DNA from: Flavihumibacter fluvii
GTDB lineage: Bacteria > Bacteroidota > Bacteroidia > Chitinophagales > Chitinophagaceae
NCBI RefSeq assembly: GCF_018595675.2
Contig: NZ_CP092333.1
Location: forward strand, 2,876,001 to 2,940,000
Length of the DNA stretch: 64,000 nt
Direction: 5' to 3'
This document shows positions 8,160 through 21,326 of the stretch, in pieces. The translations under genes and the position numbers were made by a program. Every line of letters begins with the position of its first letter. The stretch's first letter is position 1. The notes below the pieces were generated by a model. It was not told the DNA's origin. It saw only the letters and a program-made list of their open reading frames with translations, and did not search any database.

Positions 8160-8298
8160 ATCAATATGCTGATTGGCATATAAGATACTACCTTCTTCGA
8201 ATAGCGTAAAAAAGGATTGTCCGCTTTTGACCTCTTGCTGTCCTTTGGCACCGCCAAAGCCGGACTAGCTTTGTTGTACAAATTAGCCATCAAACAAA

Positions 8299-15636: not shown

Positions 15637-17178
15637 TTAAATATTTCTGCGCAATAAAAGAGCACCATCTGCTTCAGTCTTCTGGTGGCAGGCCCAGTTG
15701 ACTTTACGGCGAATGCCCTTCACCTCGATCTCTGCATACATACGTACGCCTTCCATATTCGTGCCCTTCGGGAATACAAACATAGCCTGGCGTACTTTAC
15801 CTGGTTTCGGATAACCAGGGTCCAGGCTGCCTTCGGCGAGCTTTTCTCCGGCAGCACTGACCATGTAGACCCGCAAAGCACCCGGAACACCGGCAACCCC
15901 ATCATTAACCAGTCCCAGCACCAGCCCGGGATGCCCGTCTTTTTCAAAAGACCAGATCCAGGATGGGCGCACGCGATAGCCAATAGTGCGCGCAAGGTCA
16001 TCGATCGCATCGGGATACTGTTCGTAATAATGCTGCAACCTTTCCGCCTGGATATTGTGCCAGTTCCATAAAGAAAAATAATGCGGACCCACATCTTTTG
16101 CGTGGGCAATGATGCTATCCGTGCGGGTGATGCCTTCGGCAATTTTAAGGCTTTCGGCACTGCCATCTGAGATACCGTTTTCCACAAATCCGCCGATCCA
16201 GGCAGGTCGGTTGCTCAGGCTTTCGATCTGCATATTTTCGATAAAGATCGTATCGGTGCGCAGCCAGTTGTGCGACCTGATGGTGCGGTCTACGATCTCA
16301 GAATTGCCCACCCGGCTAAAATCGGGTTGCGTGTTGGTGAGCAGTGGCGTGTGCTTCCAGTTGGCAGCCTGTCGCTCGAAAATATTGATGAAGGTATTTT
16401 CTGCTGTCGTATAATCTTTGAAAGGATGCTTGTCCGCGAAAGGCCAGGTATGGCCTTCACCCCAAAAGCCATACATATAGGTATCCATACATTCTACCTG
16501 CGTATGGCCGTCGTATTGGGTGGCGAGCATGCCATCGAGCTCCTGCAAGGCCGCTAAAAATGCCGGGTGGTCGTATTGGGGTGCGTATAAGATTTTCCCG
16601 GGAAGGCCAATTTCATTGGTGATCCCAAATTTATACAACGGGACTTTCTTCGTGAGAAAATCGGGCATGGATTCGGGTACGATATCCGGACTCATCAACT
16701 GTATGCGAAAGGCGATGCGCTTGTTGTATTGTTTGGCCAGGTCGAAGGCAATCTTCCAATGGGCACAGGGACCGAGCTGTCCGGGTTTGCTTTGCATATC
16801 ACGCCAATCAAGCCTGATATAAAGCACATCCGTGAGTGGAAACGCAACGAGTTTTTCCAGGGACTTTTCGAGCGACTCCTTGTCTTTCCTTGCCGGACCC
16901 ATTTCATCGCAGAGGTAGGTGGCCATTCCCATGCCGTAATTCGGTACGCGTTTTTTTGAAGGCGTTGTCGCCATGATCACTTCTGCCCCGGGAACCACAT
17001 CTTCGGGCTGGTAAGACGGGAAGGGACCCTGGTTCAGGCGGTTGGTAATGACGGGGCCATTGCCGAAATTATAACCATCCCAATTGTGCGCAGGCACAAA
17101 AGCATTTGCCCGGTGAGGTAAAGCGCTTGCTGCTAAAGAAGCAAGCGCAGCTTTCTGGATAAAATTTCTTCTGTTCAT
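15637..17178 (-). CDS. Tat-exported glycoside-hydrolase-like protein
   Basis: 513 residues from the ATG at 17178, which places the twin-arginine signal MNRRNFIQKAALASLAASAL at the N terminus; an upstream in-frame ATG (17217) would bury it. The body looks like a TIM-barrel sugar hydrolase followed by a small beta domain: VLYIRLDWRDM, QVECMDTYMYGFWGEGHTWP (an acidic cluster like a catalytic-site strand), NWHNIQAERLQ. It may belong with the DUF4832 group of barrel proteins, but I cannot place it firmly. Operon with the downstream beta-helix protein supports a role in polysaccharide breakdown (inference). Confidence 0.55.
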   Translation of the reverse strand: MNRRNFIQKAALASLAASALPHRANAFVPAHNWDGYNFGNGPVITNRLNQGPFPSYQPEDVVPGAEVIMATTPSKKRVPNYGMGMATYLCDEMGPARKDKESLEKSLEKLVAFPLTDVLYIRLDWRDMQSKPGQLGPCAHWKIAFDLAKQYNKRIAFRIQLMSPDIVPESMPDFLTKKVPLYKFGITNEIGLPGKILYAPQYDHPAFLAALQELDGMLATQYDGHTQVECMDTYMYGFWGEGHTWPFADKHPFKDYTTAENTFINIFERQAANWKHTPLLTNTQPDFSRVGNSEIVDRTIRSHNWLRTDTIFIENMQIESLSNRPAWIGGFVENGISDGSAESLKIAEGITRTDSIIAHAKDVGPHYFSLWNWHNIQAERLQHYYEQYPDAIDDLARTIGYRVRPSWIWSFEKDGHPGLVLGLVNDGVAGVPGALRVYMVSAAGEKLAEGSLDPGYPKPGKVRQAMFVFPKGTNMEGVRMYAEIEVKGIRRKVNWACHQKTEADGALLLRRNI

Positions 17179-17425
17179 GGTATTAAATGTAGGCAATGGG
17201 CGGGCTAAATGGTTCAATTAACCAGATAAAATATACTATGAATATTAGAATAATTATGCGCTGCGCTGAAGGTATGGCACTGGAAGGAATCCACAAGTGC
17301 AACCTCGGGGTATTTCCTGTATTGTACGACTATCAAAAAACTTCTTTGCATTTGCAGAGATGTTAACAGCTTTCGGTCTGCTTCTTTTGCATAAGATGTT
17401 TGACTGACCACATGTTTAATAATTC

Positions 17426-17614
17426 CTATAATTGTTTGGCCATTTCAGGGGTCCTAAAACCTTTCACGACCTGGTAGATACCCAGTGAAAACTCAAATAC
17501 TGCAACTAAAACTGCGGCCAACCCTGCCAGTGCGGAATATTGCCCGATGGGACCGAACATCACAGCGAAGTAGCCCGCGATGATAGAAGTAGTTCTGTTG
17601 GCATTCATTTTCAT
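17426..17614 (-). CDS. Short DUF4386-like membrane protein, probably internally deleted
   Basis: 62 residues. The first part, NRTTSIIAGYF, matches the start of DUF4386 membrane proteins, and the remainder (a VFEFSLGIYQVVKGF helix) matches their last helix. DUF4386 proteins are normally about 220-240 residues with several helices; here everything between is missing, but the frame is intact. It could be a remnant that is still translated or a functional miniature. It lies 19 bases after the stop of the upstream beta-barrel gene and may share its AraC-type promoter. Confidence 0.5.
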   Translation of the reverse strand: MKMNANRTTSIIAGYFAVMFGPIGQYSALAGLAAVLVAVFEFSLGIYQVVKGFRTPEMAKQL

Positions 17615-17633: not shown

Positions 17634-18293
17634 TTATTTTTTCCCGAGCGGATATTTCTTCCAGGGTGCAGAACAATGCAAACTGATATTCAGGTATCGA
17701 TTGTACATTTCCTGGTTGTTGGAAATATTGGATAAACCATAGGTGTACCGCATATCTACTACAACGGCCTTTTGTTTCACCTTAAACCGGTAACCAGCGC
17801 CCATTTGAATGCCTGCATCCCAACGTTTAAAGGCATCGTTTGAATCATCAAATGGAAGCGCTTTAGTCGACCCTTCCATTTTCCGGGTTCCATAAACATT
17901 GTAGGCTATATAAGGTCCTGCATTCACATAAATTTTACCGAAATTAAAACGGACCAGCACTGGTAATTCTATTGTGTATAGTCGAAGTGTTGTTTTGTTG
18001 TAGGTTAGCGGATTATCGGCTTTTAATGTTCCCCCTTTCATGATAAAATACAATTCGGAGACAAAAGAAAACTTCGGTGTAATACCAGCCTGAAACGACA
18101 CCCCAACCTGCGCCCCCAGGACCGGTTTTTTATACTCCTTTAAAGAGCTGTTTAACTCGCCATAGTTGAGGTTTGTACTCACCACATTCAGCAGGATGTC
18201 CAGATAGGTCTTTGTGCCCGCTGCCTGGCCAAATGTGTTGGCGCTCAGGAAAAGCATACTTAGTATAAGTGCTGCCTGTAACTGCTTTTTCAT
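17634..18293 (-). CDS. Outer membrane beta-barrel protein (PorT-like)
   Basis: 219 residues with a signal peptide (about 1-22, ending NTFGQA). Amphipathic strands such as VLGAQVGVSFQAGITPKFSF, IYVNAGPYIAYN and AGIQMGAGYRFKV, ending in MRYTYGLSNI, fit the Bacteroidota outer-membrane beta-barrel family (PF13568 type). Its promoter region carries the operator and -7 element shared with two nearby genes, so it is likely controlled by the AraC regulator at 19.8-20.7 kb. Confidence 0.8.
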   Translation of the reverse strand: MKKQLQAALILSMLFLSANTFGQAAGTKTYLDILLNVVSTNLNYGELNSSLKEYKKPVLGAQVGVSFQAGITPKFSFVSELYFIMKGGTLKADNPLTYNKTTLRLYTIELPVLVRFNFGKIYVNAGPYIAYNVYGTRKMEGSTKALPFDDSNDAFKRWDAGIQMGAGYRFKVKQKAVVVDMRYTYGLSNISNNQEMYNRYLNISLHCSAPWKKYPLGKK

Positions 18294-18322: not shown

Positions 18323-18371
18323 CAAAACTAATTTTGGGAGCAGGCAGGCTGGCAGGACAAACCTGCAGTTG
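18323..18371 (-). promoter_or_regulatory. AraC-type operator plus -7 element for the beta-barrel gene
   Basis: Read on the minus strand: CAACTGCAG, 2 bases, TTGTCCTG, exactly 22 bases, then TAGTTTTG, which fits the Bacteroidota -7 consensus TAnnTTTG. The -7 element ends 29 bases before the gene start at 18293. The same layout occurs at 18464-18512 and 20659-20707. No good -33 element is visible, as expected for an activator-dependent promoter. Confidence 0.65.
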
Positions 18372-18463
18372 AACCGGATTCAACTGAAGTTTTATCCATT
18401 CCATTTATTGAACAAGGAAAGATGAAATGGGGAGCCTGCCAGGGATTTTACATTTGTCCTGCT

Positions 18464-18512
18464 TAACTACATAATTGTCCTATCCGCCAGGTCAGCGTTG
18501 CAATTATTTTTG
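18464..18512 (+). promoter_or_regulatory. AraC-type operator plus -7 element for the 2TM/flavoprotein operon
   Basis: TAACTACAT, 2 bases, TTGTCCTA (18475-18482), 22 bases, TATTTTTG (18505-18512). This is a weaker match to the upstream half (6 of 9) but has the same spacing as the other two copies. An extra TTGTCCTG box lies at 18454-18461. Confidence 0.6.
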
Positions 18513-18549
18513 CAGGCAAATCACTTTAATACGCCACAAATAAATCAGT

Positions 18550-18780
18550 ATGAAAACAAAAATGAAATTGTTCGCCGCATTAAAGATCTGGGTGGTAATT
18601 TATCCATCTATTACCCTGTTTCTTTTCTTATTTGGCAAACCATTATCCCTCTTGCCCTTATACCAGCGGACCTTCCTGCTAACCATCTCATTGGTTCCCC
18701 TGATCGTGTTTGCCGGCGTACCTTTAGTGGATTCGATCATCCGCCAGTTGTCAAAAAAAAGCGGAAAGGATAAATTATAA
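18550..18780 (+). CDS. Small two-helix membrane protein
   Basis: 76 residues: a short basic N terminus, two hydrophobic helices (VVIYPSITLFLFLFG and FLLTISLVPLIVFAGVPLV) and a basic Lys-rich tail. I do not recognise a family. The stop overlaps the next start as TAATG, so it is translationally coupled to the flavoprotein gene. It lies behind an AraC-type promoter. Confidence 0.7.
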   Translation: MKTKMKLFAALKIWVVIYPSITLFLFLFGKPLSLLPLYQRTFLLTISLVPLIVFAGVPLVDSIIRQLSKKSGKDKL

Positions 18781-19709
18781 TGAACTCAAAACATCATCCA
18801 GTGTCAGATCATAATACATACGATGTTATCATAGTGGGCGGCAGCTATTCCGGTCTTGCTGCTGGTATGGCCCTTGGAAGAGCCCTTAAAAAAGTATTAA
18901 TCATTGATGATGGCAAACCCTGTAACCGGCAAACTCCCTATTCACATAACTTCATTACGCATGACGGGCACACCCCCAGGGAAATTGCTGCATTAGCCAA
19001 CCTGCAAGTCAACAGGTATGAAACAGTGAAGTTTTTTTACGGCCTGGCAACAAGTGGAAGTAAAACTGCCCTTGGTTATGACATTCAGGTAGCAACTGGT
19101 GAATCCTTCACGGCTAAGAGATTAATCTTTGCCACAGGCATTAGGGATATTATGCCTGCAATTGACGGATTTGCCGCATGCTGGGGTATCTCAATGCTTC
19201 ACTGCCCTTATTGTCATGGCTACGAAGTGAGGCACGAACCAACTGGTCTCCTGGGCAACGGCGAAACTGGTTTTGACTTAGCGAGGCTAATTTCAAACTG
19301 GACCAATGATTTAACCCTCTTTACCAATGGAGCTTCAACACTAACTTTTGAACAAACTGCACAACTTGACAAGCACAGTGTTAGAATAGTAGAAAAGGAA
19401 ATTGAGCAATTCGAGCATAGCAACGGTCATCTTAGCATGATCAATTTCCGGGATGGAACAACATCAGCTATCAAAGTCATTTATGCGCCTGTTCCATTTG
19501 AGCAGCAGTGCAGCATACCGGAATCTTTGGGGTGCGAATTAACTGCGGAAGGCTATATTCAGGTTGATCCTTTTCACGAAACTTCAGTGAAGGGCGTTTT
19601 TGCATGTGGCGATAATGTTACCCGGATGCGAACTGTTGCCAATGCTGTCGGAATGGGAACTACAACCGGAATAACAGTAAGCAAGAACCTGATTCTGGAA
19701 GAATTTTAA
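18780..19709 (+). CDS. Thioredoxin-reductase-like NAD(P)/FAD oxidoreductase
   Basis: 309 residues. FAD motif DVIIVGGSYSGLAAGMALGR near residues 14-33, a redox-active-looking CPYCHGYE motif near residue 141, a second nucleotide-binding region (TGLLGNGETGFDLA) and a C-terminal FAD motif GVFACGDNVT. This matches the class of stand-alone thioredoxin-reductase-like flavoproteins. The CxxC suggests disulfide exchange with an unknown partner. Coupled to the preceding 2TM gene and next to an AraC regulator whose operator appears upstream. Confidence 0.85.
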   Translation: MNSKHHPVSDHNTYDVIIVGGSYSGLAAGMALGRALKKVLIIDDGKPCNRQTPYSHNFITHDGHTPREIAALANLQVNRYETVKFFYGLATSGSKTALGYDIQVATGESFTAKRLIFATGIRDIMPAIDGFAACWGISMLHCPYCHGYEVRHEPTGLLGNGETGFDLARLISNWTNDLTLFTNGASTLTFEQTAQLDKHSVRIVEKEIEQFEHSNGHLSMINFRDGTTSAIKVIYAPVPFEQQCSIPESLGCELTAEGYIQVDPFHETSVKGVFACGDNVTRMRTVANAVGMGTTTGITVSKNLILEEF

Positions 19710-19765
19710 TATATAGCCAACCATCGGGTAGCTATCCTGTTTGGCTTTTAATAGTTAACTTCAAC

Positions 19766-20650
19766 ATGACCGGCAATTCAGCCAAAATGAAGAAAATTCC
19801 GATAAGGCAACTCATTTCCCCAAGGCAGGAAATTCCATCTACCGAACGTTTTAAGATACGCAAGGTCCAGGACCTGCTGGACAGGGAGGACTTATTCCAT
19901 GAATTGCACCGGCATGATTTCTTTTTTATTATTGCTTTACAAAAGGGCGCGGGTATCCATGAAATCGACTTTACACCGTATAAAGTTATCGATAATGCTA
20001 TTTTCTTTATGCGCCCCGGACAGGTGCACCAGCTCCAATTGAAAGCGGATTCGACAGGATACATAATAGAATTTAACACCGAATTTTACCATCCAAAAGA
20101 CAGGGTGTCAACCCAGCGATTACGAAAAGCCAGCAATAAAAACTACTGTGAACTGGAGACAAACAGGTTTGAAAAATTATATGGTATTCTAACGAATATT
20201 TTCCAGGAGTATACTGACAGGGAGGAAGGATTCCAGGATGTCATTAAAGCAAACCTGGATATTTTCTTTATTGAATATGTAAGGCAGAGCCCGAATCCCA
20301 ATGGCCCGTCAACAACTGTCAATCCCTATACACAGGAACGCCTTGAAGAATTTTTAGCCCTTTTGGAATCCCACATTACTACACAAAAACAAGTTAGCCA
20401 GTACACTGACCTGATGAATCTTTCCCCTTACCAGCTAAATGAAATCACGAAAGCAACGATGGGGAAAACAGCCTCTGAATTAATCAATGAACATATTATC
20501 CTGGAGGCCAAAAGAAACCTGCTGGCCACACCCAATCAAATCAAAGATATAGCCGACATCCTGGGCTACGAAGACGTTTCCTATTTTATCCGATTCTTCA
20601 GGAAGCAAACCGGGTATTCGCCTGAAGCGTTCCGGAATAATCATAGATAA
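19766..20650 (+). CDS. AraC-family transcriptional regulator
   Basis: 294 residues (an ATG seven codons in, at 19787, is an alternative start). N-terminal cupin-like ligand domain (LHRHDFFFIIALQKG, MRPGQVHQL) and C-terminal double helix-turn-helix: QVSQYTDLMNLSPYQLNEIT then IKDIADILGYEDVSYFIRFF and KQTGYSPEAFR. It sits between the flavoprotein operon and the dehydrogenase gene. Three promoters around it share an operator with identical geometry, so it is the natural candidate to bind them (inference). Confidence 0.88.
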   Translation: MTGNSAKMKKIPIRQLISPRQEIPSTERFKIRKVQDLLDREDLFHELHRHDFFFIIALQKGAGIHEIDFTPYKVIDNAIFFMRPGQVHQLQLKADSTGYIIEFNTEFYHPKDRVSTQRLRKASNKNYCELETNRFEKLYGILTNIFQEYTDREEGFQDVIKANLDIFFIEYVRQSPNPNGPSTTVNPYTQERLEEFLALLESHITTQKQVSQYTDLMNLSPYQLNEITKATMGKTASELINEHIILEAKRNLLATPNQIKDIADILGYEDVSYFIRFFRKQTGYSPEAFRNNHR

Positions 20651-20658
20651 GTCCCACA

Positions 20659-20707
20659 CAACTGCAGCATTGTCCTGTCCTGCCACCTGCCGGTGAAATT
20701 ACTTTTG
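20659..20707 (+). promoter_or_regulatory. AraC-type operator plus -7 element for the SDR gene
   Basis: CAACTGCAG (20659-20667), 2 bases, TTGTCCTG (20670-20677), 22 bases, TACTTTTG (20700-20707). The operator halves are identical to those before the beta-barrel gene. The gene starts 22 bases after the -7 element. Confidence 0.65.
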
Positions 20708-20729: not shown

Positions 20730-21326
20730 ATGAAAATTATCATCGTAGGTGCATCAGGCACAATGGGAAAGCACTTAGCCAGTGCATTTGAAAAAGAACA
20801 TGAAGTAATTAAAGCTTCTGCAAACGGCGGGGATGTACAGGTAGATATTACGTCTACCGAATCCATCGAAAGTTTTTTCAGGCAGGTCGGTCCATTTGAT
20901 GCACTCATCAGTACAGCAGGCCCGACCTATGTTGGTCCATGGAAAAAAATGTCCGGCAAGGAATTCAGGAAAGGCGTTGACGGCAAAATGATGGGACAGA
21001 TCAACCTGGTACTTATCGGGCAGCACTACATCAATCCTAACGGATCATTTACATTAATTACCGGTGCCCTGACCCATGATCCCCAAAAGAATTTTGCCAA
21101 TGCCTCGGCAGCCAATGGAGCTGTAGAAGCATTTGTACGGGCAGCGGCCATTGAATTGGACAATGGCATCCGCATCAATGCAGTCAGTCCTACTGTAATT
21201 GAAAATTCACCACAATATTTTCCCTTTTTTCCCGGGGATATTCCTGTAACCATGCAACAGTTGGAATTCGGCTTCCGTAAAGCTGTGTTTGGCGCCAATA
21301 CCGGGCAGGTAATAAAACCATACTAA
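20730..21326 (+). CDS. Short-chain dehydrogenase of the Tyr-less PRK07578-like type
   Basis: 198 residues. NAD(P)-binding GASGTMGKHLA near residue 7, the acidic segment DVQVDITS, a DALISTAGP strand, GQINLVLIGQHYINPNGSFT and a C-terminal GIRINAVSPTVIE. The sequence order matches short-chain dehydrogenases like PRK07578. The catalytic YxxxK is replaced (ASAANGAVEAFVRAAA), which I believe is typical of this subfamily, so it may not be a classical alcohol dehydrogenase. Its promoter carries the AraC operator described above. Confidence 0.8.
   Translation: MKIIIVGASGTMGKHLASAFEKEHEVIKASANGGDVQVDITSTESIESFFRQVGPFDALISTAGPTYVGPWKKMSGKEFRKGVDGKMMGQINLVLIGQHYINPNGSFTLITGALTHDPQKNFANASAANGAVEAFVRAAAIELDNGIRINAVSPTVIENSPQYFPFFPGDIPVTMQQLEFGFRKAVFGANTGQVIKPY

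Follow-up and report, generated by a model that had tools for sequence, protein, structure and literature searches.

At araI1-I2 of Escherichia coli, a dimer of AraC lies on a direct repeat of 21 bp, with its proximal half next to the -35 element, and activates the polymerase. In Bacteroidota, we know of few AraC-family regulators with mapped sites. Members of the family bind direct repeats and yet form symmetric dimers, according to an excerpt of PMC9723621. Here, we describe the promoters around an AraC-family gene, called araC below, in a stretch of 64,000 nucleotides of Flavihumibacter fluvii (NZ_CP092333.1, positions 2,876,001-2,940,000), hereafter the window, to which all coordinates refer. 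Three of these promoters very probably form one small local regulon under the activator encoded at 19787-20650, acting at an operator that resembles araI. The likeness to the E. coli system includes the AraC/XylS type of the regulator, the 21-bp direct repeat, the right half lying by the -33 element as it does by the -35 element of araI, and the two boxes per half. The boxes themselves differ, as do the targets; the promoter element is the -7 of Bacteroidota instead of a -10, and one operator overlaps the regulator gene's own 3' end. Among the matches listed in the open-licence literature, there was nothing on this system, on an AraC operator or regulon of Bacteroidota, or on an operator placed over a stop codon. 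The elements concerned are the following.

18353..18391, minus strand: operator A, of the beta-barrel gene; two half-sites in a 21-bp direct repeat (matrix score 46.2 bits, outside the training set)
18323..18330, minus strand: -7 element of promoter A, TAGTTTTG, from the sequence
18444..18482, plus strand: operator B; two half-sites in a 21-bp direct repeat, GTCC in both (47.4 bits, outside the training set)
18505..18512, plus strand: -7 element of promoter B, TATTTTTG, from the sequence
20639..20677, plus strand: operator C, overlapping the araC 3' end, predicted to drive the short-chain dehydrogenase/reductase (SDR) gene (56.7 bits, in the training set)
20700..20707, plus strand: -7 element of promoter C, TACTTTTG, from the sequence
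19787..20650, plus strand: araC, AraC-family regulator (HTH_18 and AraC_binding, Pfam), starting at a conserved methionine
20648..20650, plus strand: araC stop codon TAA, columns 10-12 of operator C, inside its left half-site

An earlier reading of the sequence alone (the sequence-only reading) had claimed at these positions three promoters with a common site and a common spacing, TTGTCCT(G/A)-N22 before the -7 element, with identical upstream halves in two of them. We find the same arrangement, written here as TTGTCCT-N23-TAnnTTTG, and CAACTGCAG-N2-TTGTCCTG is indeed shared by A and C. The operator it described was correct for the right half and wrong in being a single site: a second half-site, which it had missed, lies exactly 21 bp upstream of the first in A, B and C, making the operator a direct repeat. 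It had also overlooked that operator C runs across the araC stop codon. The full element approximates AACTTCA-N3-AAGTCC-N5-AACTGCA-N3-TTGTCCT, followed by 22 bp (reckoned from the base after TTGTCCT) and TAnnTTTG. Operators A and B are divergent and their outer ends are 52 bp apart. Operator A also holds a perfect inverted repeat, CAGTTGAA-TCCGG-TTCAACTG (18366-18386, minus strand), which spans the left half and the first right box and is absent, by eye, from B and C.

The short pattern TTGTCCT-N21-23-TAnnTTTG has three matches in the 5,001,887 bases of the genome, and its presence alone is not significant because the reversed control pattern also has three. All three matches fall within 2.4 kb, for which a simple, post hoc estimate gives a chance of about 7e-7 for random sites. 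The longer form RTCC-N5-AACTNCA-N3-TTGTCCT has three exact matches in the genome, all in the window; allowing one mismatch adds none, and allowing two adds two. Only the exact matches stand out, because with up to three mismatches the pattern has 30 matches and its reversed control 38. A loose half-site pattern with up to two mismatches was uninformative in this genome (428 matches, 561 for the reversed control). A 21-bp direct repeat of GTCC followed by TAGCTTTG, elsewhere in the window (8219-8275, plus strand), was rejected as a further operator: it is without the AACT box and without an AraC gene among the adjacent reading frames, and it overlaps a palindrome, TTTGGC-ACC-GCCAAA.

Searches with the AraC protein and with larger stretches gave 68 distinct loci, window included, once 3 of 71 had been dropped as duplicates (individual loci are given L numbers below). 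The relatives of the window AraC share 45-81% identity with it and extend from its own genus and family into different classes of the phylum, with Chitinophaga, Niastella, Ferruginibacter and Sporocytophaga among the genera. Their distribution is patchy, the orthologue being present in 45 of 394 genomes of the family and in 15 of 395 genomes of a phylum sample (E 1e-60, own genome included); the viral contigs searched held no relative, and plasmids searched at the DNA level gave no match. We built a position-weight matrix from sites 3' of araC, picked in 60 of the 68 loci and reduced to 51 by removal of near-duplicates. Scanned over the 68 loci (949 kb), it gave 85 matches of at least 24 bits, including A and B at 46.2 and 47.4 bits although neither had been in training, and none of at least 20 bits in five rounds of shuffling. 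The araC gene is followed directly by an operator in 63 of the 68 loci, the window among them. Where the gap is 22 bp (67 sites), column identity averages 0.77 for the operator and 0.89 for the -7 element, compared with 0.47 for the spacer and 0.49 downstream; it is 0.59 in the 20 upstream bases, which in the 3' sites are mostly araC coding sequence. The gap to the -7 element, allowed to vary from 20 to 24 bp, is 22 bp in 67 and 21 bp in 18 of the 85 operators. Recurrence of the pattern near AraC homologues of related genomes, which the sequence-only reading had suggested looking for, was borne out in 40 whole genomes chosen for their AraC orthologue: a 57-bp pattern with at most one mismatch and a fixed gap (a gap of 21 bp not being allowed) had 37 matches in 31 of them, against one for the reversed control. 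Of these matches, 35 fall in araC loci, and the other two, one about 1.5 Mb from araC (genome G925) and one on another contig (G947), precede an SDR-2TM pair, 2TM standing for the small protein with two transmembrane segments described below. What computation shows is the operator together with its conservation, spacing and target genes.

The genes concerned in the window are these.

17634..18293, minus strand: outer-membrane beta-barrel protein (OMP_b-brl_2, Pfam)
17426..17614, minus strand: peptide of 62 amino acids downstream of the barrel gene; 57% identity over 44 amino acids to the C-terminus of a 222-amino-acid protein
18550..18780, plus strand: small hydrophobic 2TM protein of 76 amino acids, its two segments assigned by eye; no significant Pfam or NCBIfam family
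18780..19709, plus strand: flavoprotein resembling thioredoxin reductase, with CPYC; nearest solved relatives 3fbs, DepH and 4ntd, GliT lower
20730..21326, plus strand: SDR (NCBIfam PRK07578, 243.7 bits, cut-off 167)

Operator B would drive the 2TM and flavoprotein genes and, judging from the gene order, araC. Homologues of the 76-residue protein lie close to araC in many loci. The 62-residue peptide has no significant Pfam match; its earlier description as a DUF4386-like peptide needs correcting, since it aligns only with the C-terminal part (44 residues) of a full-length relative. Probably it is what is left of a regulon gene, the C-terminal end of a larger membrane protein that may be DUF4386-like; in L089, the 222-residue membrane protein sits directly behind a divergent operator. 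On the other side of this peptide, a 526-residue protein (15637-17217, minus strand) neighbours the regulon region and matches no Pfam or NCBIfam family at E 0.001.

To each operator we assigned the longest reading frame starting at most 400 bases behind the -7 element, a rule that can pass over a short intervening gene. The targets of the 85 operators are the flavoprotein (30, often with a 2TM gene in front), the SDR (21), the barrel (8), the 2TM protein (2), a full-length relative of the 62-residue peptide (1) and 23 others. The latter comprise 11 methyltransferases dependent on S-adenosylmethionine (SAM), three DUF2938 proteins, two zinc-type dehydrogenases, one DUF4386 protein and six further or doubtful frames, with families assigned by search for six representatives and by eye from sequence for the rest. 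Divergent pairs like A and B are also present in L039 (barrel and 2TM-flavoprotein) and in L089 (relative of the 62-residue peptide and 2TM-flavoprotein); among the other 67 loci, some of them cut close to araC, an operator upstream of araC occurs only in L036.

The SDR allows the association to be examined from the side of a target. An SDR of at least 67% identity is found in 32 genomes, 31 of which also hold the AraC orthologue, present overall in 45 of 394; the formal probability of this co-occurrence, 5e-34, is not to be taken literally because related genomes are not independent. Within the stretch read, the operator accompanies 25 of the system's 33 SDR loci, and it is found at none of 11 SDR homologues outside the system (thresholds of 10 bits on the SDR strand and 15 on the other). 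These 11 are eight genes from seven genomes in which AraC has no orthologue at E 1e-60, an absence that is unsure in two because they are incomplete (63 and 69%), and three diverged second copies in genomes with AraC. The predicted operator goes with the genes, beyond map position alone. Together with the 3' operator in 63 of 68 loci and the recurrence before the same targets, the 0 of 11 supports the sequence-only reading, in which three activated promoters around araC have one AraC operator in common. In three of six inspected loci of the outside group (L247, L249 and L253), the SDR gene is divergent from a small regulator that looks HxlR-like by eye, and the three genes share a different upstream motif (TACTTGACAAA-like). 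HxlR-type regulators are known for redox and quinone sensing. This suggests that the same type of enzyme is run by a different regulator elsewhere.

How the regulator would act can be read from the promoters. The -7 consensus of Bacteroidota is TAnnTTTG, as given in the part of PMC7366714 consulted, and is present in A, B, C and at least 76 of the 85 operators, as in promoters of the primary sigma factor, whereas the -33 TTTG of such promoters is not a feature of the operator promoters. The sequence-only reading had remarked on the missing -33 element. TTG at N17-23 from the -7 element occurs in 5 of the 85 operator promoters, and by eye in none of A, B and C, against 119 of 768 TAnnTTTG places in the same loci with the 85 included (Fisher p about 0.007 with the 85 removed from the comparison set). 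Such a rarity is as expected of activator-dependent promoters. We infer binding, activation, operon structure and autoregulation from sequence, along the following lines. A dimer of AraC would occupy the two direct-repeat half-sites, 21 bp or two helical turns apart, each being read through both helix-turn-helix motifs at the boxes AACTKCA and WWGTCC. With the right half-site ending beside the -33 position, the bound regulator would recruit RNA polymerase to the TAnnTTTG element. If the 2TM, flavoprotein and araC genes form one operon, site B would drive araC and the regulator would therefore be under positive autoregulation. Repression, or action in both directions, instead of simple activation is the alternative that survives best, and we regard it as unlikely. 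E. coli AraC represses in the absence of its ligand, and the 52 bp between the outer ends of the divergent A and B would permit contact between them; yet the gap of 22 or 21 bp in all 85 operators leaves the -7 element and the start free, and the deficit of TTG at -33 is that of activator-dependent promoters.

It is very unlikely that another regulator binds these sites and that araC is a mere neighbour. The operator has been mapped from conservation alone, which leaves room for this alternative, but it adjoins araC in 63 of 68 loci whichever gene comes next, its 21-bp direct repeat has the geometry of AraC at araI, and the 11 SDR homologues outside the system lack it. The regulator has the domains of AraC/XylS proteins, C-terminal HTH_18/HTH_AraC and N-terminal AraC_binding, at Pfam scores of 71.6, 51.5 and 34.5 bits, all above the cut-offs, and A, B, C and the aligned orthologue sites have the direct repeat of about 21 bp of that family's operators. 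A closer assignment to HpaA, the regulator of 4-hydroxyphenylacetate catabolism, was rejected (NCBIfam TIGR02297, 102.5 bits, cut-off 274.65). The start of araC is probably at 19787 and not at 19766 because the methionine at 19787 is shared by 62 of the 66 orthologues in the alignment, with the window's own counted. Within the first helix-turn-helix, with residues numbered from 19766, Tyr222 is present in 63 and Gln223 in all 66 orthologues, where 63 paralogues mostly have Asn or Lys and His or Tyr, and Leu-Asn at 224-225 is common to both groups; in the second, Ile275 is found in 59 of 66 orthologues against Ser or Thr in 44 of 63 paralogues. This pattern, a correlation only, fits a shared GTCC-type box and a regulator-specific box.

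More distant AraC genes also speak against another regulator, having related 21-bp repeats at their own 3' ends. Around the stop codons of 62 non-redundant genes of 29-37% identity, WGTnC pairs occur 11 times at 21 bp and never more than once at each of the other distances between 8 and 39, compared with none at 21 and at most three at any other distance in the middle of the same genes. The set consists of 62 of the 74 distant matches listed (12 not included) plus L047, with one redundant gene dropped; some of its members are inter-related, so that the independent cases number less than 11, and the strict pattern is missing from most of the 62 genes. The 21-bp operator design may thus be family-wide. 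Half-sites such as AGTACC, 21 bp before a second GTnC half-site, are seen at the 3' ends in L014, L015, L021, L027, L030, L033, L182, L190, L203 and L208, and the stop codon TAG falls inside the left half in L021, L027 and L190.

In the closer relatives, the unusual feature is that the operator sits at the end of the regulator's own gene. Of the 63 3' operators, 57 have the stop codon in an identical set of three columns within the left half-site (the exceptions being L034, L116, L125, L128, L133 and L136), and TAA ends 60 of these 63 araC genes, compared with 32 of 63 more distant ones. A reading of the conserved stretch as an RNA element, be it a leader or a terminator, or as the outcome of coding constraint on the C-terminus of AraC is hardly credible: the left half-site does encode part of the last residues, often N-F-K/R-stop, and protein constraint adds to its conservation, but what is conserved is a directly repeated site, set at a constant distance from a promoter element and present on both strands, and the 22 operators that the rule used places away from the araC end, A and B included, retain columns 2, 4 and 5 of the left half in 20, 21 and 19 cases. 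The left half-site is therefore more than the trace of a protein end. Two of the 22 (L101 and L099) are at or near an araC end, and the agreement is partly built in because the matrix was trained on 3' sites, A and B having been named independently by the sequence-only reading.

Several points weigh against a regulon under AraC at the conserved operator. The operator is defined from sequence conservation, and the loci are related, so that their counts are not independent. By the rule used, 5 of the 68 loci have no 3' operator: L044 lies on a cut contig; L101 has an interrupted araC frame whose boundary was misplaced, with an operator 7 bases past the C-terminal match; in L099 the operator is about 360 bp beyond araC; and L089 and L130 have operators only at places other than the araC 3' end. 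Weak remote operators of 25-31 bits occur in L100, L106, L225, L230, L039 and L089. In nine of the 40 genomes the fixed 57-bp pattern finds no match, and 8 of the 33 SDR loci of the system have no operator in the stretch read.

The purpose of the regulon is a more tentative matter. It is possible that it detoxifies dithiol or disulfide compounds, or other redox-active ones, by means of its GliT/DepH-like flavoprotein, the SDR and, elsewhere, the SAM methyltransferase. Among solved structures, the flavoprotein, related to thioredoxin reductase and bearing a CxxC motif, is closest to the GliT/DepH/HlmI group. Its nearest relatives are 3fbs (an oxidoreductase of unstated role), DepH and 4ntd, which we take to be HlmI, with GliT seventh, in a ranking by similarity and not by a tree. 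It aligns with all four over most of its length, and CPYC is seen in the alignments with 3fbs, DepH and 4ntd. Its identification as a thioredoxin-disulfide reductase was rejected (NCBIfam TIGR01292, 70.6 bits, cut-off 343.45). The methyltransferase behind operators is closest to Slr1183, for which we know of no established substrate. Its 11 loci gave no flavoprotein match within the araC loci read. A strict exclusion between the two enzymes was considered and rejected, as it holds in the araC loci and fails genome-wide: of the 11 genomes with the methyltransferase type, five have a flavoprotein relative elsewhere at 48-53% and two at 34-37%, four have none at E 1e-50 (one of these being 79% complete), and a methyltransferase relative at E 1e-30 is found in 9 of 29 other genomes searched, own included.

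Both enzymes have counterparts in described systems. In Pseudomonas aeruginosa, the DepH-group enzyme DnoP (PA4170) is inducible and detoxifies gliotoxin and related toxins; zinc starvation elicits its response, through a signalling path described as not established (PMC11317636). In Aspergillus, the oxidase GliT and the S-methyltransferase GtmA share the handling of dithiol gliotoxin, according to the extract of PMC5356443. The flavoprotein here is likened to DnoP by description, with an activity predicted from its sequence; DnoP responds to zinc starvation, whereas an AraC-type operator is predicted here. The parallel with GliT and GtmA lies in oxidase and SAM methyltransferase as alternatives, the methyltransferase being found at 11 of the 85 operators; the one here is Slr1183-like and is likened to GtmA only as a SAM methyltransferase. 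The pairing of the operator with an oxidase or a methyltransferase is suggestive of dithiol defence, no more. Two points weigh against this purpose. It is drawn from enzyme families, and other redox or aromatic substrates fit equally. A fully conserved cysteine was sought in the regulator among 66 orthologues and none was found, the best being Cys128 in 44 of 66, so that a thiol sensor is not indicated.

Somewhat less probable still is a broader picture, in which a large group of Bacteroidota AraC regulators carries the operator at its own 3' end, often with the stop codon in the left half, so that regulator gene and switch make up a single piece that could be placed in front of any gene, and in which the branch described here is an inducible defence against dithiol or disulfide natural products whose partner is either an oxidase of the GliT type or a methyltransferase. 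For regulators of this family, operators might be read directly from genomes by means of the 21-bp signature found at AraC 3' ends. Should the flavoprotein prove to be a dithiol oxidase, the regulon could show how these bacteria sense such toxins. For genes of obscure purpose in many Bacteroidota, the system provides a testable operator, a list of targets and a regulator.

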